A stretch of DNA of 64,000 nt from Pseudoalteromonas ruthenica (GTDB taxonomy: Bacteria; Pseudomonadota; Gammaproteobacteria; Enterobacterales; Alteromonadaceae): assembly GCF_008808095.1 (NCBI RefSeq), contig NZ_CP023396.1, forward strand, positions 558,001 through 622,000, read 5' to 3'. Below the pieces are notes generated by a model, which ran no database searches, was not told the origin of the DNA, and saw only the letters and a program-made list of their open reading frames with translations. A program made the position numbers and the translations under genes. Shown one piece after another: positions 21,038 through 34,920 of this stretch. Position 1 is the stretch's first letter; the number at the start of each line of letters is the position of its first letter.

Positions 21038-22906
21038 TTATTGTTGACTGGCTATCCAAGCATCAATGTCTTGCTCAACAATCGCCATGGGACGTGCCCC
21101 AGGAGTGAGAATAACATCGTGAAACGCTTTTATGTCGAACTTGTCGCCTAGTGCTGTACGCGCTTTATCACGCAGCTCGACCAGTTTGATCATACCTAGT
21201 TTGTAACCCAAGGCCTGACCTGGCCACGCAATATAGCGGTCAATGGCAGAGACAACATCACTCATAGCGGTGCCTGTGGCCTCGGCAAAATAATCAATGG
21301 CTTGCTGGCGTGTCCATTTTTTATAGTGCAGGCCGGTGTCTACCACCAAACGTGCAGCGCGGTATACTTCAGCCTGTAATCGTCCTAAGTCACCAAACGG
21401 GTCGTCCTGATACATCCCCATCTCATAAGCGACGAGCTCGGAGTAAAGCGCCCAGCCCTCGACATAGGCATTAAAGGAGGCATTTTGGCGCATCAGGCCA
21501 ATATCTTGTTGCAACATATTCAATGCGATTTGGAAATGGTGTCCCGGTACGGCCTCATGGTATGTGAGTGTTTTCATGCCGAAGCTGGGAACTGCTTTCA
21601 TATCCTTGAGGTTAATAAAGAATACACCAGGGCGTGAACCGTCCAGCGATGGGCCGTTATAATAGCCGCCGGCGGAGCCTGCCTCAACAGCGACAGGAAT
21701 ACGACGCACCTCTACTTTTTGTGGTGGTAAGGTGGAGAAATACTGCGGCGCCTTGGCGACAATTTTGCTTATCTCACCGCGTAAAAAGGTGAGTAGCTCG
21801 GCTCGCCCTGCATCGCTATCTTCATATAAAAAGCGAGGTTCGTTATTGAGTTGCTGCATGCGCTTGCCAACGCTGCCTTCACTGTAGCCGTTGGCTTTAA
21901 GGATTTCATCCATACGTTCGGTAATGCGCGCGACCTCATCAAGGCCTAGCTGGTGGATTTGCTCGGCAGTGAGCGTGGAGTCCCCTAAGTAAGTGATTTC
22001 ATGCTGATAGAAAGCATCGCCATTTGGTTGCGCCCAAATACCGACATCAGTGGGCGCGTGCTCTTCAAGCGCCGCCATGTCTTTGCTTACACCCGCAAAC
22101 CCAGGATAAATCTCAGTGCGTACGAGTGTCTCGGCAGTGTTTATGTAATCCTGGCGTTGGCGCTCATCAAGACCGTCGATAGCACTTAGCTTGTCGGCGA
22201 ATGAGGCAACAAGCGGGTGCTCGCTGGGTTGCACAGCGGTAAAATTAGTTAAATAACCCAATGTGTTTGCAAACAAGGGTTTCGGTAATATGACTCCAAG
22301 CTTGGCGTCGGCTTTAAGTTTTTCTCTGACCTGTGCAATAACCTCGGCAAAACCACTTAGACGAGCAAGGTAATTGTCAGCATCTTCAATGTCTGAGACC
22401 TCATGCTGATCTTTAAGCAGGTTGGGTAAATCGATGAGCGGGCCGGACAGTTGGTTGACCACGTAAGGTAGGTGCCCGCCCCAGGTATCGATATAGCCCG
22501 CTGCAAAGTCTTCGTCACCAGCATAATAGCGAGCAATTACCTCATTGACGCGCAGGTGCAATAACTCATCCGCAGCCAGATCAGGGTGTTGCAGTGCTGC
22601 TAATTGCTCGCCAGCGCGGCGCATATCTTTTTGCAGTTGCTGCATACCGGCTACCGAATAATCAGGGAGCTGGCGGTTATAGTCACCATAACTTTGCTCT
22701 GGTAGCTTAAGCGACGTGGCTAGGGCGCTTTGATGGCTGATAAAGGTTTTGGTGTATTGCTCTACGGCATTATGAACTTGTTCAGACGTTGGCGCTTGAT
22801 TGCGTTGCTGAGTTGGTTGCTCTGCTTTTACAATGGTTTGGGGGGCTTCAGAGCAGCCTACTAAGGCCAAAGTGATGGCAAGAGCAAGGGTGTTGATTGG
22901 CTTCAT
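21038..22906 (-). CDS. DUF885 family lipoprotein, probable zinc peptidase
   Basis: The 622-residue product begins with a lipoprotein signal (lipobox LVGC, Cys near residue 18), so it is probably lipid-anchored. The body has the DUF885 signature HEAVPGHHFQIALNML near residue 445 and downstream YVEGWALYSELVAYEMG, which fit a gluzincin-type zinc site (HExxxH with a distal Glu). Family members are presumed dipeptidyl or carboxy-peptidases; substrate not known. It is convergent with msrB and probably monocistronic. Confidence 0.8.
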   Translation of the reverse strand: MKPINTLALAITLALVGCSEAPQTIVKAEQPTQQRNQAPTSEQVHNAVEQYTKTFISHQSALATSLKLPEQSYGDYNRQLPDYSVAGMQQLQKDMRRAGEQLAALQHPDLAADELLHLRVNEVIARYYAGDEDFAAGYIDTWGGHLPYVVNQLSGPLIDLPNLLKDQHEVSDIEDADNYLARLSGFAEVIAQVREKLKADAKLGVILPKPLFANTLGYLTNFTAVQPSEHPLVASFADKLSAIDGLDERQRQDYINTAETLVRTEIYPGFAGVSKDMAALEEHAPTDVGIWAQPNGDAFYQHEITYLGDSTLTAEQIHQLGLDEVARITERMDEILKANGYSEGSVGKRMQQLNNEPRFLYEDSDAGRAELLTFLRGEISKIVAKAPQYFSTLPPQKVEVRRIPVAVEAGSAGGYYNGPSLDGSRPGVFFINLKDMKAVPSFGMKTLTYHEAVPGHHFQIALNMLQQDIGLMRQNASFNAYVEGWALYSELVAYEMGMYQDDPFGDLGRLQAEVYRAARLVVDTGLHYKKWTRQQAIDYFAEATGTAMSDVVSAIDRYIAWPGQALGYKLGMIKLVELRDKARTALGDKFDIKAFHDVILTPGARPMAIVEQDIDAWIASQQ

Positions 22907-22999
22907 TGTTGTCCGTGTTTTTTATTGTCGTTGGGTAGTGACTTAATATACACGCTTGGCATAGCAAAGCTAGCAAGGTGCGGGCAACAACCTCGGCGG

Positions 23000-24631
23000 C
23001 TAAGCAATATGTGAGTGCTTGTTAATATATTTCTGCTTTATCTTTTCAAAGCGCTCGCCCATCTCCGCATCTAAATCCGCCTGTTCCAGTAAGCTTACAC
23101 ACTTGTTGGCAAGTTGCTGGTTAAACGTCATGCCTTGGCGGGTGCTGCCTTCATACAAGCACTGCAATAAGTTTAGGGCAATACTGCGGTTTTTCGGCAT
23201 CACCCGAAAAGCCTGAGTAAAAGCTTCTAGTGCCAATAAGTAATTGCCCTGTTTAAATTTCTCTACCGCATGGTTGTTCAACTCACGCGGCCCCATGCGT
23301 AAATCTCGGCGCTCACTTTGCTGTTGAATGACGCTTTTTAGTTGCAATTCAGAGCGTCTCTCAGGGTAGCGCTCACAATGATCGATAATCTTGTTAAACA
23401 ATGCCTGGGCTTGCGTGTGAAAGCCTAGCTCATGGTATGCCTTGGCTTGATCAAGGGCACCATCAATAGAGCGAATAGGGGAGTCATCAATGACCAGCTG
23501 CTCGATAAGCATTTTGGCTTTGTGGTGTTCATCTTTTAAATAATGAAGCCGCGCGTTAAGAACATCCACCTGGGTTTGTTGCTGGGCATCAGGAAACTGC
23601 TTTTTTAGGTCATTAAGGTATTTGGTTGTTTGTCGGGTAACGCGGGATATTTGCTCGCCTTGATCGGTTGTCAGGGCATAATCAATACCTGCTCGAGCGG
23701 CATTAAGGTAGACCTCTGGGTTATCGTGTACTGAGTGGCGAGCAAACTTAGCAATATCACGTTTAGCTAGGTAGGTTTGTTCATAATCATGATTGATCTG
23801 CGCTACCTGCGACAAACTCTCTTGACGCTCTAGATTGCGCGGAGCCATAGTGGTAGCCGCACTTAAGTACTCTTGGGCCTGCTCGAATTGATTCAGTTTT
23901 ATCTCTAACTGCCCTAATAAGTCATAAGCAACAAGACGGGTTTCAGTGCGCTCTAGCAGGGTTTTGAGCATGCGGTGGGCGAGGTTATGCTCGTTGTTTC
24001 CAATAAGCGCTTCAACTAAGCCAATGCGCGCCCAGGTAAATTTCTGAATATCCAATACAGATTTAAAGAAGGTTTTTGCCTGCTCATATTGCTGCTGCAG
24101 TAGCAGTGCATCTCCCTTAAGGCGCAGTAGCACAGCCGCATAACCTTGTTGGCTCGCAAGTTTAGTATCGATCATCTTCACCGCTTTGGAGTAATTCTCA
24201 TCATCCATAAGCTGGAAAATATCCTTGAGCGCGCGTTTGCGTTTCACTACGCGCTCGATACGGCTTTTCAGTTCTAGGGTATTGAAGGGTTTTACTAAAA
24301 AGTCATCGGGATGTAGCTCAAGCACACTGTGTACTAATGCCCCCGAAGTTTCTGCAGAAATAAAAATAAAGCCGGTGGCGCCCTTGACCAGCTTATTTAC
24401 CTTGAGCTCTTCATATAATTGATAGCCATCTTGGTGCTTGCTTAAGTTAAACGCACAGATGATCAAGTCGAAAGCGTCTTCTTTACATAATGTCTTGGCG
24501 ACAACGGCATTTTCAGCAAAGCGTAAGCGTCTGTAGCCCAAACGCTCTAAAGATTGCTTCATATAGCTAAGTGCTAATGGCTGCTCTTCAATGATTAATA
24601 TATGCGCTGAGCTGGAAACTTGCTGGGCCAT
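23000..24631 (-). CDS. Receiver-domain protein with TPR repeats, phospho-acceptor Asp missing
   Basis: This 543-residue protein has an N-terminal CheY-like receiver domain (about 10-130) and a long helical C-terminal part with tetratricopeptide-type repeats (about 150-530). In the receiver the acidic pair is E15-E16 and the conserved lysine is present in DDFLVKPF, but the position where the phosphorylated Asp should lie is Ala60 (DLIICAFNL; codon GCG at 24452-24454). It is therefore likely a pseudo-receiver that does not accept phosphate in the usual way. No kinase gene is adjacent. Function is unknown; it is probably a protein-interaction hub. Confidence 0.8.
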   Translation of the reverse strand: MAQQVSSSAHILIIEEQPLALSYMKQSLERLGYRRLRFAENAVVAKTLCKEDAFDLIICAFNLSKHQDGYQLYEELKVNKLVKGATGFIFISAETSGALVHSVLELHPDDFLVKPFNTLELKSRIERVVKRKRALKDIFQLMDDENYSKAVKMIDTKLASQQGYAAVLLRLKGDALLLQQQYEQAKTFFKSVLDIQKFTWARIGLVEALIGNNEHNLAHRMLKTLLERTETRLVAYDLLGQLEIKLNQFEQAQEYLSAATTMAPRNLERQESLSQVAQINHDYEQTYLAKRDIAKFARHSVHDNPEVYLNAARAGIDYALTTDQGEQISRVTRQTTKYLNDLKKQFPDAQQQTQVDVLNARLHYLKDEHHKAKMLIEQLVIDDSPIRSIDGALDQAKAYHELGFHTQAQALFNKIIDHCERYPERRSELQLKSVIQQQSERRDLRMGPRELNNHAVEKFKQGNYLLALEAFTQAFRVMPKNRSIALNLLQCLYEGSTRQGMTFNQQLANKCVSLLEQADLDAEMGERFEKIKQKYINKHSHIA

Positions 24632-24855
24632 ACCGCTACTAGGGAGATGTTATTTAAACCGACTATATAAACTAGTCTAGCTGCTGACAAGTAAATCGCG
24701 AATAAAGCCAGAAAATGCTGGTGAAGAGAGTAAAAACTGTGCAGTCATGGTTAATGTGCAGGCGTTGGGTAATAAGAAGGTGGCATGTTGAGTACCTAAG
24801 GCTTTATATTACAAGGCGTTTATATATTGTGCTTTATATCTAAAGAGCATCTATA

Positions 24856-25553
24856 TGGTGGGTTGTACTGGTTTTGAGCCAGTGATTTTTGCTTTGGAAT
24901 AGGGAACGAGTGCAATGCTGAGCATCGAGGATTTTATATCTGGTGAGTGTCTATATGGTGGGTTGTACTGGGTTTGAGCCAGTGATTCTAGCCTTGGAAT
25001 AGGACTGAGTGCGATGCCGAGCATCGAGGGTTTTATATCTGGTGAGTGTCTATATGGTGGGTTGTACTGGGTTTGAGCCAGTGATTCTAGCCTTGGAATA
25101 GGACTGAGTGCGATGCCGAGCATCGAGGGTTTTATATCTGGTGAGTGTCTATATGGTGGGTTGTACTGGGTTTGAGCCAGTGATTTTTGCCTTGGAATAG
25201 GGGCTGAGTGCGATGCCGAGCATCGAGGGTTTTATATCTGCTGAGTGTCTATATGGTGGGTTGTACTGGGTTTGAGCCAGTGATTCTAGCCTTGGAATAG
25301 GGAACGAGTGCGATGCCGAGCATCGAGAGTTTTATATCTGGTGAGTGTCTATATGGTGGGTTGTACTGGGTTTGAGCCAGTGATTTTTGCCTTGGAATAG
25401 GGGTTGAGTGCGATGCCGAGCATCGAAGGTTTTATATCTAAAGAGTATCTATATAGTGGGTTTTACTGGGTTTGAGCCAGTGATTTTTGCCTTGGAATAG
25501 GGAACGAGTGCGATGCCGAGCATCGAGGATTTTATATCTGGTGAGTGTCTATA
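24856..25553 (-). repeat. Tandem array of seven ~100-bp units each carrying the 3' part of tRNA-Val
   Basis: Seven units of 99 or 100 bp begin at 24856, 24956, 25055, 25154, 25254, 25354 and 25454 and run directly into the first functional tRNA-Val gene at 25554. On the minus strand each ends with a copy of the tRNA-Val T-arm, acceptor 3' strand and CCA (about 30 nt); the T-stem ACTGG/CCAGT is kept, while the T-loop differs (CTCAAAC instead of TTCAAGT). Unit 7 has changes in the acceptor and CCA. Each unit also holds a hairpin CGATGC-CGA-GCATCG or near copy (for example 25012-25026), and weaker similarity to the anticodon-stem region (GCATCGC, CAAGGC). The layout resembles the repeats behind tRNA-Tyr in the E. 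coli tyrT operon. Confidence 0.9.
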
Positions 25554-25629
25554 TGGTGGGTTGTACTGGACTTGAACCAGTGACCCTCGCCTTGTAAGGG
25601 CGATGCTCTCCCAACTGAGCTAACAACCC
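25554..25629 (-). tRNA. tRNA-Val (anticodon UAC), copy 1 of 6 by position
   Basis: 76 nt with CCA encoded. Acceptor stem GGGTTGT/ACAACCC, T-loop TTCAAGT, anticodon loop CTTACAA. It is the distal gene of the minus-strand array and borders the degenerate repeat units. Confidence 0.97.
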
Positions 25630-25661
25630 ATATAGAGTGGTGCACATGAAGCACGGTAGAA

Positions 25662-25737
25662 TGGTGGGTTGTACTGGACTTGAACCAGTGACCCTCGCCT
25701 TGTAAGGGCGATGCTCTCCCAACTGAGCTAACAACCC
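25662..25737 (-). tRNA. tRNA-Val (anticodon UAC), copy 2
   Basis: Identical in sequence to the other copies; 76 nt with CCA. The first of four copies spaced at exactly 118 bp (25662, 25780, 25898, 26016). Confidence 0.97.
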
Positions 25738-25779
25738 GGGTCTAAGTTATTCTATATGCGATACTCGAAGATGAGTAAA

Positions 25780-25855
25780 TGGTGGGTTGTACTGGACTTG
25801 AACCAGTGACCCTCGCCTTGTAAGGGCGATGCTCTCCCAACTGAGCTAACAACCC
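25780..25855 (-). tRNA. tRNA-Val (anticodon UAC), copy 3
   Basis: Identical 76-nt tRNA gene; flanked on both sides by the same 42-nt spacer (TCTAAGTTATTCTATATGCG and following), part of a 118-bp tandem duplication. Confidence 0.97.
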
Positions 25856-25897
25856 GGGTCTAAGTTATTCTATATGCGATACTCGAAGATGAGTAAA

Positions 25898-25973
25898 TGG
25901 TGGGTTGTACTGGACTTGAACCAGTGACCCTCGCCTTGTAAGGGCGATGCTCTCCCAACTGAGCTAACAACCC
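25898..25973 (-). tRNA. tRNA-Val (anticodon UAC), copy 4
   Basis: Identical 76-nt tRNA gene within the 118-bp tandem duplication. Confidence 0.97.
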
Positions 25974-26015
25974 GGGTCTAAGTTATTCTATATGCGATAC
26001 TCGAAGATGAGTAAA

Positions 26016-26091
26016 TGGTGGGTTGTACTGGACTTGAACCAGTGACCCTCGCCTTGTAAGGGCGATGCTCTCCCAACTGAGCTAACAACCC
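26016..26091 (-). tRNA. tRNA-Val (anticodon UAC), copy 5
   Basis: Identical 76-nt tRNA gene; the spacer to copy 6 is a different 32-nt sequence. Confidence 0.97.
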
Positions 26092-26123
26092 ATATAGAAT
26101 AAACAGATGCGTCACTTAAAAAG

Positions 26124-26199
26124 TGGTGGGTTGTACTGGACTTGAACCAGTGACCCTCGCCTTGTAAGGGCGATGCTCTCCCAACTGAGCTAACAACCC
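26124..26199 (-). tRNA. tRNA-Val (anticodon UAC), copy 6, promoter-proximal
   Basis: Identical 76-nt tRNA gene; first transcribed of the array, about 50 nt downstream of a strong promoter at 26250-26277. Confidence 0.97.
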
Positions 26200-26249
26200 A
26201 CATCTGGCAACAAAGAGTGAGGAAACCTCTCTCGCTGTTGTGGGGCGCT

Positions 26250-26277
26250 ATTATAGATAGAGACGAAAGACTGTCAA
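26250..26277 (-). promoter_or_regulatory. Strong sigma70 promoter of the tRNA-Val array, GC-rich discriminator
   Basis: On the minus strand TTGACA and TATAAT are perfect consensus hexamers 16 nt apart, followed by AGCGCCCCAC. A GC-rich discriminator is the known hallmark of promoters repressed by ppGpp and DksA in stable RNA genes. Confidence 0.9.
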
Positions 26278-26468
26278 CACTTGAGTTGCACATTTTGTTT
26301 TATATGCGGGTTTTATAAACAACCTGTTCATCAACTACGCACGCGAAGCCAGCACTCCCGCTTATGTGAGTCATAGTTGTGCGCGTGGTAACAAGGGATG
26401 TGCGTTCATAGGGCTATATAGGTATCGATACCAGCGCAATAATGAAGGTCTTATTTATGGAGCGCATT

Positions 26469-27275
26469 ATGAATCACAGTCTTTTTATCTCCCACGGGGG
26501 AGGGCCGTTACCTCTATTGGCTGAACCAAGTCACACAGGTATGTGTGATGCATTAGCAAAACTAGCGACTCAAATCCCTAAGCCTCAGCTTGTTATTGTA
26601 ATAAGCGCGCATTGGCTTTCACAGGAGGGAGTTGCTATTAATACCCAGCAACAGCCCAACTTACTCTATGACTATTACGGTTTTGATAGGGCGGCCTATG
26701 ATATTGCTTATCCTTGCACGGGTCATACTCGAGTTGCCAACTACTTAGCCAGTTATTTACAACACCAAGGTATACCTATTCTTATTGAGCAGCAACGAGG
26801 GCTAGATCATGGTGTCTTTGTACCGTTAAAGTTAATGTATCCAGATGCAGACGTCCCTTGTGTACAAATATCATTGCATGGCGGTTTAGATGAGCGCTTT
26901 CACGTAGAGTTAGGGCAACACCTCGCAAATGCTGTTGCTGATCTTGATAACGTATTATTGCTTGGTTCAGGTTTCACCTTTCATAATATGGCTGCATTTA
27001 AAAAAGGGCCGATTGATGATACTCAGGGGTATAATCGACAGTTTGAAGATTGGCTCATACACACTTTGCAGGCGCCAATGAGTGAAAAGCAGCGCCAACA
27101 GCAGTTAATTGCGTGGCGAACAGCACCTGGTGCACTTTATTGTCAGCCCACGTCAGAACACTTGTTGCCTTTACACTGTGCATATGGAGCAGCTCGATGT
27201 CGACCTGATACCCATATCTCAACGGAAATTATGGGGTGGCAAGCCAGCTTTTTATTATGGCAACTAGAGGCATAA
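26469..27275 (+). CDS. DODA-type extradiol ring-opening dioxygenase family protein
   Basis: This 268-residue protein belongs to the LigB/DODA (YgiD-like) family of non-haem iron or zinc enzymes that open catechol rings next to the hydroxyls. Likely metal ligands are His in FISHGGGPLPL near residue 9, His in VISAHWLS near 48, and His in RGLDHGVFVPLKLMYPDADVP near 112; a further His is in SLHGGLDERFHVELG. The start at 26469 was chosen because GGAG lies 6 nt upstream; an earlier in-frame ATG at 26442 has none. It stands alone between the two tRNA arrays; the natural substrate is unknown. Confidence 0.8.
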   Translation: MNHSLFISHGGGPLPLLAEPSHTGMCDALAKLATQIPKPQLVIVISAHWLSQEGVAINTQQQPNLLYDYYGFDRAAYDIAYPCTGHTRVANYLASYLQHQGIPILIEQQRGLDHGVFVPLKLMYPDADVPCVQISLHGGLDERFHVELGQHLANAVADLDNVLLLGSGFTFHNMAAFKKGPIDDTQGYNRQFEDWLIHTLQAPMSEKQRQQQLIAWRTAPGALYCQPTSEHLLPLHCAYGAARCRPDTHISTEIMGWQASFLLWQLEA

Positions 27276-27453
27276 GTGCTCGTTGCGATTAAGGTGATAC
27301 GTTGGCTGACGAAATAACCACAATAGATACCGATATTTGCCTGTCTCAAAGTAGGTAAGTGGTTAATAAAGAGCCATATTTGACTGTTTTTGTCTAACCT
27401 TTACGCGTCTTGGCTAAAATTGCTTCGGTCAGTAAAAAGTTACTTAAAAAGTG

Positions 27454-27482
27454 TTGACTTTGTTTAGGGGGGTGCATAGAAT
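27454..27482 (+). promoter_or_regulatory. Promoter of the tRNA-Ala/tRNA-Glu operon, GC-rich discriminator
   Basis: TTGACT and TAGAAT are 17 nt apart and followed by GCGCCCCG, 58 nt before tRNA-Ala. The same GCGCCCC element follows the -10 box of the tRNA-Val promoter. Confidence 0.85.
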
Positions 27483-27540
27483 GCGCCCCGCACTCAACGA
27501 GATGAACACCGCAAGTTTGGCAGTTTATCTCAAGCTGTTT

Positions 27541-27616
<76 letters not shown>

Positions 27617-27816
27617 AATTCTATAGTGCAACACACGTTTCTATCTCGGTAGGCTAAACTTCGAATGTTTAGGTGTGATACTCGTATGGTAAGAGTTTAA
27701 ATAACCAGTCCTAGTGACATTAAATTCAGCGTTTTTGCTAAGGCCGCTTCGCCTCACTGGTTCGGCTCAGCCTTTACAAAAATTTATCGAAGTTATACTT
27801 CGATAGCGAAATTTGT

Positions 27817-27892
27817 GTCCCCTTCGTCTAGAGGCCTAGGACACCGCCCTTTCACGGCGGTAACAGGGGTTCGAATCCCCTAGGGGACGCCA
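27817..27892 (+). tRNA. tRNA-Glu (anticodon UUC), copy 1
   Basis: 76 nt with CCA; acceptor GTCCCCT/AGGGGAC, anticodon loop CTTTCAC, T-loop TTCGAAT. Type A spacer upstream. Confidence 0.97.
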
Positions 27893-28059
27893 CTTTACTC
27901 GTATGGTAAGAGTCTAAATAACCAGTCCTAGTGACACAGAATGTAGTGAGCTTGTTGCTCTTACAGGTTCTGCTTGGATGAATAAGGCCATTCGCTTTCG
28001 CGGGCTCAAGCTCATCTTACGCAGAATAAGCAAAGTACACTTTGCTAAACCAATTCTGC

Positions 28060-28135
28060 GTCCCCTTCGTCTAGAGGCCTAGGACACCGCCCTTTCACGG
28101 CGGTAACAGGGGTTCGAATCCCCTAGGGGACGCCA
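28060..28135 (+). tRNA. tRNA-Glu (anticodon UUC), copy 2
   Basis: Identical to copy 1; type B spacer upstream. Confidence 0.97.
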
Positions 28136-28302
28136 CTCTACTCGTATGGTAAGAGTTTAAATAACCAGTCCTAGTGACACAGAATGCAGTGAGCTTAGTG
28201 CTCGTACAGGTTCTGCTTGGATGAATAAGGCCATTCGCTTTCGCGGGCTCAAGCTCATCTTACGCAGAATAAGCAAAGTACACTTTGCTGAACCAATTCT
28301 GC

Positions 28303-28378
28303 GTCCCCTTCGTCTAGAGGCCTAGGACACCGCCCTTTCACGGCGGTAACAGGGGTTCGAATCCCCTAGGGGACGCCA
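28303..28378 (+). tRNA. tRNA-Glu (anticodon UUC), copy 3
   Basis: Identical to copy 1; type B spacer upstream, nearly identical to the one before copy 2. Confidence 0.97.
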
Positions 28379-28519
28379 CTTTACTCGTATGGTAAGAGTT
28401 TAAATAATCAGTCCTAGTGACATTAAATTCAGCGTTTTTGCTAAGGCCGCTTCGCCGCACTGGTTCGGCTCAGCCTTTACAAAAATTTATCGAAGTTATA
28501 CTTCGATAGCGAAATTTGT

Positions 28520-28595
28520 GTCCCCTTCGTCTAGAGGCCTAGGACACCGCCCTTTCACGGCGGTAACAGGGGTTCGAATCCCCTAGGGGACGCCA
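28520..28595 (+). tRNA. tRNA-Glu (anticodon UUC), copy 4
   Basis: Identical to copy 1; type A spacer upstream. Confidence 0.97.
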
Positions 28596-28762
28596 CTTTA
28601 CTCGTATGGTAAGAGTATAAATAACCAGTCCTAGTGGCACAGAATGTAATGAGCTTGCTGCTCTTACAGGTTCTGCTTGGATGAATAAGGCCATTCGCTT
28701 TCGCGGGCTCAAGCTCATCTTACGCAGAATAAGCAAAGTACACTTTGCTGAATCAATTCTGC

Positions 28763-28838
28763 GTCCCCTTCGTCTAGAGGCCTAGGACACCGCCCTTTCA
28801 CGGCGGTAACAGGGGTTCGAATCCCCTAGGGGACGCCA
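28763..28838 (+). tRNA. tRNA-Glu (anticodon UUC), copy 5
   Basis: Identical to copy 1; type B spacer upstream. The downstream inverted repeat TTCAAGT/ACTTGAA has no T run, so no intrinsic terminator is evident. Confidence 0.97.
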
Positions 28839-29002
28839 CTTTCTTCAAGTACTCACTTGAAAAAAAACATCTCTTCATAGCTATTAATATCCATCGCTTA
28901 TAAAAAATTCCCGTTATTTTTTCTTGCCACAGAAGTGCGAATTAAAGCGTGGTTTATGGGAAGGATAGGAGCCAAGGGACAACCTTGACTCAGGAGCGTA
29001 GC

Positions 29003-29402
29003 TTAAAAGCTGTTATCAGCCTTTTTCTGGATCAGTTCAATTGCATAGCCATCAGGGTCTTTAACGAAGGCTATTTCTGTAGTGCCTCCTTTTACCGGAC
29101 CCGGTTTCGCGGCTTACTACGCCACCGGCGGCACGAATTTGCTCGCAAGCCTGGTAAATGTCGTCATACTCAATGGCAATATGGCCATAAGCATTGCCGA
29201 GATCGTAGCTATCTTCATCCCAGTTATACGTAAGCTCTAACACGGTAGTGTCTTTCTCCTCACCATAACCGACGAAGGCGAGGGTGTAGCGGTATTGCTC
29301 GTTGTCAGCACGGCGTAGCTCTTTCATGCCCAGTACATTGGTATAAAACTCGATCGAGCGCTCTAAGTTGCCAACACGCAACATGGTGTGTAATAAACGC
29401 AT
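29003..29402 (-). pseudogene. gloA: Lactoylglutathione lyase (glyoxalase I), apparent 1-nt frameshift
   Basis: GloA converts the methylglyoxal-glutathione hemithioacetal to S-lactoylglutathione. The uninterrupted frame (29061-29402) codes for 113 residues and carries metal ligands His5, Glu56 and His74, but ends in an unrelated tail after SRETG. Dropping one C from the CCC at 29100-29102 (plus strand) restores [25 protein letters not shown] in two pieces up to a stop at 29003-29005, giving 132 residues with the fourth metal ligand at Glu122, as in E. coli. So either the gene is disrupted or the read has an extra base. It directly follows nth with no gap, as the last gene of the rnf-nth operon. 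Confidence 0.88.
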
Positions 29403-30041
29403 TTATGCTACCTCAGTCTTGTCTTTAAATTCACATAAGTCTTCGATAATACAGCTGCCGCAGCGCGGTTTGCGCGCCACGCAGGTATAGCGGCCATGGA
29501 GAATAAGCCAGTGGTGTACATCAACCTTAAATTCTTTCGGCACGACTTTTTCAAGCTTTTGCTCCACCGCGACCACATCTTTACCCATAGCAAACTTGGT
29601 ACGGTTAGAGACACGGAAAATGTGGGTGTCAACGGCAATGGTTGGCCAGCCAAAGGCGGTATTAAGCACGACATTTGCGGTTTTGCGACCAACGCCGGGT
29701 AATGCTTCTAGGGCCTCACGGTTTTCAGGGACTTCCCCCCCATGTTGTGACACCAAAATCTCGCACATTTTGTACACATTATTGGCTTTGGAATTATATA
29801 AGCCGATGGTTTTGATACTCTCACGCAGCGCATCAAGACCGATATCCAAGATAGCTTGCGGCGTATTGGCATGCGGAAAAAGTTTTCTGGTCGCCTTGTT
29901 GACGCCGACATCAGTGGCCTGTGCAGATAAAGTCACTGCCACTAAGAGCTCAAAAGGAGAGCTATATTCCAGCTCGGTTTCTGGGTGCGGATTGGCTTCG
30001 CGCAACCGCTCAAGGATGAGTCGGCGCTTATCTTTGTTCAT
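29403..30041 (-). CDS. nth: Endonuclease III
   Basis: Nth is a bifunctional DNA glycosylase and AP lyase that removes oxidised pyrimidines. The 212-residue protein has the helix-hairpin-helix LPGVGRKTANVVL with catalytic Lys120, catalytic Asp138 in AVDTHIFRVSNR, and the [4Fe-4S] cluster Cys pattern C-x6-C-x2-C-x5-C near the C-terminus. It follows rnfE by 34 nt as in E. coli (rsxABCDGE-nth) and abuts gloA. Confidence 0.97.
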   Translation of the reverse strand: MNKDKRRLILERLREANPHPETELEYSSPFELLVAVTLSAQATDVGVNKATRKLFPHANTPQAILDIGLDALRESIKTIGLYNSKANNVYKMCEILVSQHGGEVPENREALEALPGVGRKTANVVLNTAFGWPTIAVDTHIFRVSNRTKFAMGKDVVAVEQKLEKVVPKEFKVDVHHWLILHGRYTCVARKPRCGSCIIEDLCEFKDKTEVA

Positions 30042-32467: not shown

Positions 32468-34920
32468 GATGACTCCTCATCATCGTTTTTATCGGCTTCT
32501 CGGGCGGCTTTCTTGGCTTTGGCGCGAGCTATTGCGGCGGCCACAGCGGCTTTTTTCTTATCCTCAGGGGAGGGTGCCTCGGTCTCGCTTTCAACATTTT
32601 CAGCTGCCCCATCGGGCTGCTGCGTAGGTGCATCGGCTTTCGTGGCTTTCTTGGCTTTGGCTCGAGCTATTGCGGCGGCTACAGCAGCTTTTTTCTTATC
32701 CTCAGGGGAGGGTGCCTCAGTCTCGCTTTCAACATTTTCAGCTGCCCCATCGGGCTGCTGCGTAGGTGCATTCGCTTTTGCCGCCTTTTTCGCTTTGGCG
32801 CGAGCTATTGCGGCGGCCACAGCGGCTTTTTTCTTATCCTCAGCAGAGGATGCCTCGGTCTCGCTTTCAACATTTTCAGCTGCCCCATCGGGCTGCTGCG
32901 CAGATGCATCGGCTTCTCGGGCGGCTTTCTTGGCTTTGGCGCGAGCAATAGCAGCGGCCACAGCGGCCTTTTTGTTATCCTCAGCAGAGGATGCCTCGGT
33001 CTCGCTTTCGACATTTTCAGCTGCCTCGTTGGGCTGCTGCGTAGGTGCATCGGCTTTTGCCGCCTTTTTCGCTTTGGCGCGAGCAATAGCAGCGGCTACG
33101 GCAGCTTTTTTGTCTTCTGCGGCTGTGGGCTGGCTATCGCTTTGTTCACCTTGCTGGGCTTTTTTCGCCTTAGCACGAGCAACAGCTGCAGCGACTGCGG
33201 CTTTTTTGTCATCCGCTGTTGCGCTTGGCGCTTGCTCAGGCTGTTGTTTTTGTGCCTTGTATGCACGAGCCTGCTCTTTTCTTTGCGCACGAGCTTGAGC
33301 AACCTCTGAGTTATCTGGCTCAGGGGCTTCACCTTGCGCTTTTTTGGCTTTGGCGCGGGCAATCGCTTCGGCGACTTTTGCCTTGTTATCACCTGGCTCT
33401 GTTTTCTTTGCTTTCACGCGAGCCAGGGCTTCAGCCACTTTTTCCTTACTTTCACTGCTTTTAGCAGCGCTTCGGCTGGGCCGTTTGTGGCGGTTACGGC
33501 GCTCTTCTTGCTCGCGCTCTAAGCGTGCTTTTCTCGCTTCGAAGCGTTCGCGTGCACGCTCAGCTTTTACTTGCTCTATCTGTTGTTCGCGAATTTCAGC
33601 TTTTGCGACTCTGTAATACTGTACCAGCGGAATTTCACTTGGGCATACGTAGGCGCAAGCACCGCACTCAATACAATCAAATAACTTATGTTCTTCGAGT
33701 TTTTGGTACTCTTTGGTTTTGGCAAACCATTGCAGCTGCTGGGGTAATAAGCTAGCAGGGCAGGCGTCTGCGCAGGCACTGCAGCGAATGCAAGCACGCT
33801 CATCACCGGGCGCTGGCATTTCTTGGTTACTGGGAGCTAATATACAGTTGGTGGTTTTGACTACAGGTATGCGCACACTGGGCAAGGTAAAGCCCATCAT
33901 TGGCCCACCCATAATCACGCGCTGCATTGGCTCAGGATTAAAACCTTGGAAAGCTAATAAATGCTTTATTTCCGTTCCCAGTAAAGCCCAGACGTTACCT
34001 TGTTGCTCAAGGGTTTCGCCTGCAAGGGTGACAACGCGTTCGATCAGCGGCTTGCCGAGCTCGACAGCTTGCTGTATCGCATATAAGGTGCCCACATTTT
34101 GTACCAGCACACCGATATCGGCAGGGATCCCGCCAGCAGGCACCTCTTTGGAGGTGAGTATCTGAATAAGCTGCTTTTCGCCGCCCGAAGGATATTTGGT
34201 TTCAATCGCTCGGACGATAATATTGTCGTAGTCGGCGCAGGCCTGAGTCATCGCCTCAATGGCCTTTGGCTTATCATCTTCAATACCAATGATAGTCAAC
34301 TCAGGGCCCAGTAAGTGCTGGATGATATGGATACCGCGTACGATTTCTTCGCTGTGCGCTTGCATAAGCACATCATCGGCGCTGATATAAGGTTCACATT
34401 CGGCGCCATTAACAATCAAAATATCGATTGGCTGTTTGCTTGCGGTTTTAACATAGGTCGGAAAACCCGCACCGCCCATGCCAGAAATACCAGCATAATG
34501 AATGATATCAACTAGTCGCTCGGCACTAAGCTGCTGATAATTAGGGTGAGGCACAAGCTCACACCAAGTCTCTTGGCCATCGGGTTCAATAATAATACTC
34601 AGCTCAGGAATGGCTGAAGGGTGCGCCGAGGGCATAGGCGTGATATCCACTATACGCCCCGAGGTTGGTGCATGCACGGGCACTGACCAATTGGCATTGG
34701 GGCGAGTGAGAGCCTGGCCTTTTAATACCTGCTCACCTGCGTTTACTAATAACTGCCCCTCAGCACCAATGTGCTGTTTGATTGGCAGCACCAGTTTTTC
34801 GGGCAAAGGTAAGCTGTGAATAGGGAGCGAGTTCGTTTTATGTTTATGGGTAGGCGGGTGAATGCCACCAGGGCTTTGCCATAACTCACCGCGACGAATA
34901 CGTGATAATAAAGAGTCCAC
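32464..34920 (-). CDS. rnfC: Rnf electron transport complex subunit C, with long Ala/Lys repeat tail
   Basis: RnfC is the NADH-oxidising peripheral subunit. Residues ~1-440 carry the conserved core: GGIHPPTHK near 17, NGAECEPYISAD near 170, and two [4Fe-4S] ferredoxin clusters (CIRCSACADACPASLLP near 377 and CIECGACAYVCPSEIPL near 416). From about 450 the protein is a charged helical tail; the last ~250 residues consist of repeats of AVAAAIARAKAKKA joined by acidic linkers, including several near-identical 46-residue (138-bp) copies. At 818 residues it is longer than E. coli RsxC (~740). The tail is probably variable in length. Confidence 0.95.
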   Translation of the reverse strand: MDSLLSRIRRGELWQSPGGIHPPTHKHKTNSLPIHSLPLPEKLVLPIKQHIGAEGQLLVNAGEQVLKGQALTRPNANWSVPVHAPTSGRIVDITPMPSAHPSAIPELSIIIEPDGQETWCELVPHPNYQQLSAERLVDIIHYAGISGMGGAGFPTYVKTASKQPIDILIVNGAECEPYISADDVLMQAHSEEIVRGIHIIQHLLGPELTIIGIEDDKPKAIEAMTQACADYDNIIVRAIETKYPSGGEKQLIQILTSKEVPAGGIPADIGVLVQNVGTLYAIQQAVELGKPLIERVVTLAGETLEQQGNVWALLGTEIKHLLAFQGFNPEPMQRVIMGGPMMGFTLPSVRIPVVKTTNCILAPSNQEMPAPGDERACIRCSACADACPASLLPQQLQWFAKTKEYQKLEEHKLFDCIECGACAYVCPSEIPLVQYYRVAKAEIREQQIEQVKAERARERFEARKARLEREQEERRNRHKRPSRSAAKSSESKEKVAEALARVKAKKTEPGDNKAKVAEAIARAKAKKAQGEAPEPDNSEVAQARAQRKEQARAYKAQKQQPEQAPSATADDKKAAVAAAVARAKAKKAQQGEQSDSQPTAAEDKKAAVAAAIARAKAKKAAKADAPTQQPNEAAENVESETEASSAEDNKKAAVAAAIARAKAKKAAREADASAQQPDGAAENVESETEASSAEDKKKAAVAAAIARAKAKKAAKANAPTQQPDGAAENVESETEAPSPEDKKKAAVAAAIARAKAKKATKADAPTQQPDGAAENVESETEAPSPEDKKKAAVAAAIARAKAKKAAREADKNDDEESS
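32510..33110 (-). repeat. 138-bp coding tandem repeats in the rnfC tail
   Basis: Four or more near-identical 138-bp copies in phase with rnfC encode AVAAAIARAKAKKA followed by an acidic linker with TQQP.GAAENVESETEA. The long plus-strand open frame over the same bases is a by-product of the repeat. Confidence 0.85.

Follow-up and report, generated by a model that had tools for sequence, protein, structure and literature searches.

A tandem array of tRNA-Val tails behind a tRNA-Val operon of Pseudoalteromonas ruthenica, with the layout of the E. coli tyrT repeats

The closest described layout is that of the tyrT-tyrV operon of Escherichia coli K-12, where one repeat unit lies between the tRNA genes and three lie behind, each ending in a tRNA-Tyr tail. 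The tRNA tail of these repeats is said to be shorter than the one described here, at 19 bp, and in Photobacterium phosphoreum a tRNA-Pro/tRNA-His cluster is reportedly accompanied by tRNA pseudogenes. For the rtT RNA of Salmonella, one study lists a 175-bp VNTR difference (PMC2658671), so copy number varies there too. Another describes an RNA antisense to tRNA-Tyr that is located next to the repeats of E. coli (PMC11623569) and has no bearing on the units themselves. A search by title and abstract start, in which older tRNA papers are thinly covered, found no literature on such arrays in Pseudoalteromonas. Here, we describe an array of this layout in a 64,000-nucleotide stretch of P. ruthenica DNA (hereafter the window). 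We lean, with some reserve, towards regarding it as an rtT-like tail array whose uniformity is maintained by recombination with the tRNA gene next to it and which is tolerated as a by-product.

The tRNA-Val operon of P. ruthenica and its seven units

ARAGORN and Rfam identified six identical 76-nt tRNA-Val(TAC) genes with encoded CCA on the minus strand (26199..25554), and seven units follow the sixth gene without a gap (Table 1). An earlier sequence-only reading had proposed seven tail units of 99-100 bp behind a tRNA-Val array, and the sequence, ARAGORN, Rfam and TRF bear this out; the extent that it gave, 24856..25629, contains the array and also takes in the last tRNA gene, the units proper covering 24856-25553. 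TRF reported a period of 100 with 7.4 copies and 92% matches (24850-25583), its start falling inside gene 6, whose tail forms the first copy of the repeat. Each unit opens with a copy of the tRNA trailer (TATAGACACTC...), runs through an AT-rich stretch into a CGATGC-TCG-GCATCG hairpin, and then carries an anticodon-region remnant, a T-arm, the acceptor 3′ strand and CCA. An alignment with tRNA-Val shows the unit to be a trailer joined to a 5′-truncated tRNA-Val, from about position 33 to 76. The tail reads AAAACCCACTA in unit 1, where CTA replaces the CCA found in 6 of the 7 units, and ACAACCCACCA in the other six. The altered T-loop CTCAAAC and the hairpin were earlier ascribed to all seven units; the loop is present, and the hairpin perfect, in six, while unit 7 departs in both respects. 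Amplification from one changed ancestor, as had also been proposed, agrees with a mean within-array identity of 0.93 and with the complete identity of units 5 and 6.

ARAGORN and the RF00005 model reported only the six genes and no functional tRNA in the units, none of which contains a complete cloverleaf. In its own genome, the unit query matched these seven places alone (E <= 0.001). A 16-nt tail pattern with up to 2 mismatches found the six genes, the seven units and three other 2-mismatch places; the reversed control gave 2. No displaced tail units occur in the tRNA-Glu array of the window.

Several further features of the window were recorded. A 90-aa open frame runs across units 5-7 (24851-25123, minus strand) and brings to mind the tpr frame of the tyrT repeats in E. 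coli; protein coding by this frame was rejected, as the 100-bp period breaks it in the other units. On the plus strand, 24500-26500 contains ten terminator-like hairpins against 1.3 expected, because the unit hairpins are repeated. Elsewhere, TRF located a 138-bp tandem repeat of 4.4 copies at 32504-33111, with Ala/Lys-rich codons by eye and possibly encoding a repetitive protein.

Table 1. Features of the tRNA-Val operon, its array and the downstream gene (positions in the window).
Feature	Position	Strand	Support
Promoter-like site, tRNA-Val operon, TTGACA-16-TATAAT	26250..26277	-	12/12 consensus match
tRNA-Val(TAC) gene 1	26124..26199	-	ARAGORN, Rfam
tRNA-Val(TAC) gene 2	26016..26091	-	ARAGORN, Rfam
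tRNA-Val(TAC) gene 3	25898..25973	-	ARAGORN, Rfam
tRNA-Val(TAC) gene 4	25780..25855	-	ARAGORN, Rfam
tRNA-Val(TAC) gene 5	25662..25737	-	ARAGORN, Rfam
tRNA-Val(TAC) gene 6, last intact	25554..25629	-	ARAGORN, Rfam, TRF
Unit 1, 100 bp, tail AAAACCCACTA	25454..25553	-	
Unit 2, 100 bp	25354..25453	-	
Unit 3, 100 bp	25254..25353	-	
Unit 4, 100 bp	25154..25253	-	
Unit 5, 99 bp	25055..25153	-	
Unit 6, 99 bp	24956..25054	-	
Unit 7, 100 bp, T-loop CTCAAAA, hairpin with wobble pair	24856..24955	-	
Partial eighth unit, trailer start only	24832..24855	-	
Promoter-like site of downstream gene, TTGTCA-17-TATAGT	24662..24690	-	10/12 consensus match
Response-regulator/TPR protein gene, synteny anchor	23000..24631	-	Pfam; match in 107/108 genus genomes

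Occurrence in Pseudoalteromonas and beyond

The unit DNA, used as a query against 108 genus genomes, matched only one other genome. Unit bodies diverge too fast for such a search, so the downstream gene, whose protein is closest to those of Pseudoalteromonas sp. T1lg75 and T1lg48 (86% and 84% identity), was used as an anchor instead. The regions upstream of it were taken from 98 further genomes (100 regions, two genomes giving two) besides the window and G094, with 7 of the 107 anchor-bearing genomes left out for a contig end near the anchor. Among 102 oriented loci, 90 carry tRNA-Val on the anchor's strand, some of them cut by contig ends. Their spacers were scanned by local alignment. Not one of 1152 spacers reached the threshold after single-base shuffling, which rules out chance as the source of the tRNA-Val-like pieces. 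After removal of 10 assembly-broken or near-intact pieces, the scan gave 309 pieces, 234 of which extend to the CCA end.

The layout is thus present in many Pseudoalteromonas genomes, where the sequence-only reading had suggested looking for it. Of the 90 loci, 68 contain some piece, 61 a tail-bearing displaced unit and 56 a tail-bearing unit after the last gene (a distal unit), and 25 have three or more of the latter; per genome, distal units number from 0 to 8 and differ in sequence. The remaining 22 loci have no piece at threshold, which counts against the reading favoured here. Presence of distal units is clustered on a tree built from about 200 nt, which has a long-branch artefact at L012, whose locus ends at another gene position: 13 changes are needed, compared with 27.2 after shuffling (0 of 500 shuffles as low). 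This clustering speaks against a pure by-product, for which it need not arise. In the nearest relatives, G077 and G079, units stand behind inner genes and the sevenfold array is missing; behind the last gene, a single tail-bearing unit is present in G077 and a decayed one in G079. With only single units there, the sevenfold array appears to have expanded recently from an older element.

No antisense piece was found downstream in 83 loci, and in 78 of these no piece lies upstream of the first intact gene; both results speak for the recombination reading. Among the five with an upstream piece, L056 and L077 are scan artefacts caused by a contig edge, and the sequence of L126 begins within the array. 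L054 and L059, which have a degenerate first tRNA-Val copy after the promoter, count against that reading. These first copies and the inner spacers of L083 are near full-length tRNA-Val pseudo-copies with a longer D-loop and anticodon arm, in which a hairpin (TACTATT/AATAGTA and variants) replaces the acceptor end. Three other loci, L087, L120 and L133, contain 23, 15 and 14 intact tRNA-Val genes and no distal tail-bearing unit at threshold; whole-gene and tail amplification may be alternatives.

Tail arrays also extend to other tRNAs. In the P. ruthenica genome, a Pro-Arg-His-Pro-Pro tRNA operon (L166; G000:C1:1572700-1574500, minus strand) is followed by a second array, of five units of about 82 bp and a partial sixth with the tRNA-Pro tail (scan positions 28-77). 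A Pro-unit query gave matches outscoring intact tRNA-Pro in 8 of the other 107 genus genomes. When 20 further tRNA regions of this genome were scanned, L166 alone had a distal tail array, 15 had no pieces, and L164, L168, L169 and L182 contained other kinds of tRNA pieces. One of these, the Met-Leu-Gln operon L169 (G000:C1:544600-547600), has three degenerate tRNA-Gln copies between intact genes, spanning positions 1-65 or 13-65 and without CCA. At tRNA-Glu arrays, analogous displaced-tail units were found in 16 of 75 genus loci; by eye, the units of L052 and L047 contain a GCGGTG-AA-CACCGC hairpin, and their T-stem is altered on both strands yet still paired. Among 20 loci fetched from other genera, displaced tRNA-Val tails were seen in 5 of the 13 with tRNA-Val, from three genera. 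Units of about 97 bp number six in L157, and units of 76 bp number at least six in L158; L153 and L147 have displaced tails, and L148 has a 17-nt match only. By eye, L157 and L153 share a GGTGC-AA-GCACC hairpin built on the tRNA segment GCACC of their own genus.

The 3′ part of a tRNA is the usual attachment stretch, and it is this part that the units retain. Prokaryotic tRNA fragments are described as often stemming from integration (PMC9897764), and on that view the units would be attachment-site remnants of integrated mobile elements. We regard such an origin as very improbable indeed: the tandem periods are short and regular, arrays stand behind two operons of one genome, and the last tRNA-Val is separated from the anchor gene by 130-1292 nt in 89 of 90 loci (L012, not cut at the gene, being excluded), a distance too short for an element. 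Phage or plasmid origin was also rejected, with no match in phage or plasmid collections.

Tail matching, unit conservation and the origin of the arrays

The acceptor strands of tRNA-Val in the genus fall into three types, ACAACCC, ATCACCC and ACGACCC. Apart from 66 of the 234 tail-bearing units that fit none of them, the tail agrees in type with the tRNA-Val gene directly before it in 166 of 168 typed units. Within the 21 loci of mixed type, agreement with the preceding gene is complete, at 27 of 27 spacers; permutations in which gene types were shuffled within loci gave a mean of 15.2 and a maximum of 23 in 10000. Likewise, all 14 units whose next gene is of another type match the previous gene. 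Such tail matching is what one would expect if a tRNA gene and the units that follow it evolve in concert. Across the 25 arrays of three or more units, median identity is 0.93 within and 0.64 between arrays. At four of them (L049, L054, L057 and L066), the units resemble the array of another species no less than they resemble one another, which counts against homogenization by recombination.

That tails follow the preceding and not the next gene is also compatible with pairing in cis. A unit's end, made up of acceptor strand, CCA and trailer, copies the 3′ end of the tRNA; by pairing with the leader and the 5′ acceptor strand of the tRNA, it would compete in folding or maturation of the preceding pre-tRNA. 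In support of this notion, leader and trailer of the last tRNA-Val are complementary over a mean of 4.66 pairs, compared with 3.55 and a maximum of 3.89 in 300 re-pairings, with at least 5 pairs in 46 of 88. Moreover, an equilibrium fold of an 883-nt RNA pairs the tRNA 5′ strand with unit tails at 0.43, 0.26 and 0.16, versus 0.001 with its own strand, although such a fold of a long RNA ignores folding during transcription. However, misfolding the tRNA of its own operon would be costly, the trailer of L157 is repeated in its units though its leader and trailer look non-complementary by eye, and recombination accounts for the same matching; we therefore consider cis-pairing improbable. Still broader, and to our minds a decidedly long shot, is the proposal that a 3′ module of this kind has evolved repeatedly and is general among tRNA operons of gamma-proteobacteria, with Val, Glu and Pro as the cases here and Tyr in E. 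coli. A unit would then be a spare copy of the tRNA 3′ end, and would have to match the preceding gene because it pairs with the leader and 5′ acceptor strand of that pre-tRNA, and the number of units would tune maturation or yield.

Between species, unit bodies differ in length and sequence, with lengths of 74-204 bp among the units listed. Identity of distal units (56 loci) to the preceding tRNA is 0.88-1.00 at positions 66-76 and 0.70-0.99 over the first ten trailer bases; it peaks at the CCA junction and declines on both sides, a peak partly built in, since the units were picked for reaching position 74 and the last positions are thereby favoured. In inner units (32 loci), positions 66-76 show 0.56-1.00 and the trailer 0.31-0.73. 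The latter is no clear conservation, and its absence counts against recombination with the preceding gene. What stays conserved across units is a stretch of about 11 nt ahead of the CCA end; distal units also keep the 10 nt that follow it.

The T-arm lacks a full stem or canonical loop in 157 of 179 distinct units. CTCAAAC, described by the sequence-only reading as a conserved T-loop, is restricted to the window array among all loci examined and thus gives no sign of constraint. Some T-stem changes affect both strands (e.g. CTGA/TCAG), and the altered 3′ strands form 3.73 of 5 pairs, compared with a mean of 3.21 and a maximum of 3.53 in 500 re-pairings; this value lies only slightly above the re-paired strands and is favoured by the fitting of loop length. 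The gap between GCATCG and the GGC-like strand, 9 nt in the tRNA, exceeds 10 nt in 201 of the 217 units measured (17 of 234 being unmeasurable), and the 12 listed of the 16 short cases are early motif matches inside enlarged loops. The GCATCG hairpin occurs in 83 of 95 units (20 of 21 loci) in the clade with the ACAACCC acceptor strand and in 0 of 139 units elsewhere, compared with 13% when the upstream sequence is shuffled. Both the widely common enlarged anticodon loop and the hairpin kept throughout a clade count against a mere by-product of recombination. The same holds for an inner unit of L110, which folds better than all 200 shuffles (z -2.9), while the RNA of the window units is not unusually stable (z -0.6 to -1.2 against shuffles). 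A conserved three-helix RNA was set aside as a candidate, given that the hairpin is confined to the ACAACCC clade, the T-arm is mostly degenerate and the z-scores are weak.

These patterns bear most directly on the main rival, a functional small RNA or enzyme decoy, in which units are freed at their CCA ends and bind tRNA enzymes or other RNAs; a similar small-RNA role has reportedly been proposed for E. coli rtT. The wide and phylogenetically clustered occurrence, the retention of CCA and acceptor strand while bodies diverge, the clade-wide hairpin, the common enlarged loop and the T-stem changes, whose 3′ strands pair better than in any re-pairing, would all suit a function. Even so, we hold it to be rather unlikely, as body sequence, length, T-arm and fold are not conserved across the genus, the window units fold no better than most shuffles, and their T-loop change recurs nowhere else.

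Termination was considered as a further reason for keeping the units. A selected Rho-dependent termination zone, with the units as repeated C-rich loading sites, would agree with a simple scan in which 89 of 90 loci showed no intrinsic terminator on the way from tRNA-Val to the next gene, and neither array operon of the P. ruthenica genome had one behind it, as well as with a C/G ratio of 2.5 in the window array; tyrT, too, is reportedly terminated by Rho. Loci without distal units are nevertheless as C-rich downstream (median 2.1 in 33 loci versus 1.8 in 57), and 15 of the 22 tRNA operon ends examined in the genome are without an intrinsic terminator, 13 of those without a tail array. Rho loading as the reason for the units was set aside, since composition does not separate loci with and without them, and we give a selected zone of this kind little credence. 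As an observation on operon ends in this genome, the Ser-Arg-Arg-Arg operon L174 (G000:C1:213600-215500) is followed at least three times by a hairpin terminator with a T-run, at 126-nt spacing.

With unit-less operon ends equally C-rich and often terminator-less, the units are not needed for termination, and we therefore take a recombination-driven tail array as the most likely explanation, a functional RNA being its main rival. Under recombination, the tandem units would derive from a tRNA-Val that lost its 5′ half and acquired an enlarged anticodon loop. Copy number would shift whenever tails recombine unequally or slip during replication, while recombination with the tRNA gene directly in front, the presumed event behind the observed matching, would keep the tails like that gene. 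The units are most likely transcribed as a 3′ extension of the tRNA-Val operon, because there is a promoter, they lie on the same strand and no intrinsic terminator precedes the next gene. The RNA is probably cut after each CCA, as at a tRNA 3′ end, and by analogy with tyrT, transcription probably stops by Rho inside or after the array. In our view, the unit RNA most likely arises as a by-product where the end of a strongly transcribed tRNA operon recombines, and it would be tolerated since the site holds nothing essential. Genomes that range from 0 to 8 differing distal units offer a direct test of whether such arrays have a function or are a mere record of recombination at tRNA operon ends.

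Comparison with known systems

Partial tRNA genes at attR sites resemble the units in being displaced tRNA 3′ parts away from an intact tRNA. The examples described in PMC9897764 mark the distal end of elements of about 9-23 kb, whereas the window has short tandem units and no element. Neither an element nor an integrase stands between tRNA and tail in the window, the units abutting the tRNA gene and each other.

The Rfam RtT covariance model (RF00391) gave no match at E<=1 in window positions 22000-30000. It matched none of the arrays at L166, L157, L112 and L110 either, with one chance-level match elsewhere in L157 (E 0.45); the control, E. coli tyrTV, gave 4 matches of 133-138 bits. The Photobacterium phosphoreum cluster is reportedly likewise a repetitive tRNA operon with degenerate copies, and the Pro operon array of P. 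ruthenica can be set beside it.

The rtT repeats of E. coli tyrT-tyrV (RF00391, rttR/tpr) are tandem units that each carry the acceptor strand and CCA of the preceding tRNA, as the P. ruthenica units do. Unlike these, they belong to tRNA-Tyr and have a 178-bp period, and within the E. coli unit the acceptor strand can pair (GGGGAAGGAT/ATCCTTCCCC, by eye). The likeness to the tyrT layout that the sequence-only reading had pointed out, for another tRNA and another sequence, holds in this comparison. With its tandem, tail-ended units behind a tRNA gene, the window array corresponds to the tyrT repeats in layout and is not a member of the RtT sequence family. The tyrT repeats have so far looked like a curiosity of one E. 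coli operon; the layout is now seen behind several tRNAs, across Pseudoalteromonas and three other genera, with tails that follow the neighbouring gene, and so becomes a comparative system.
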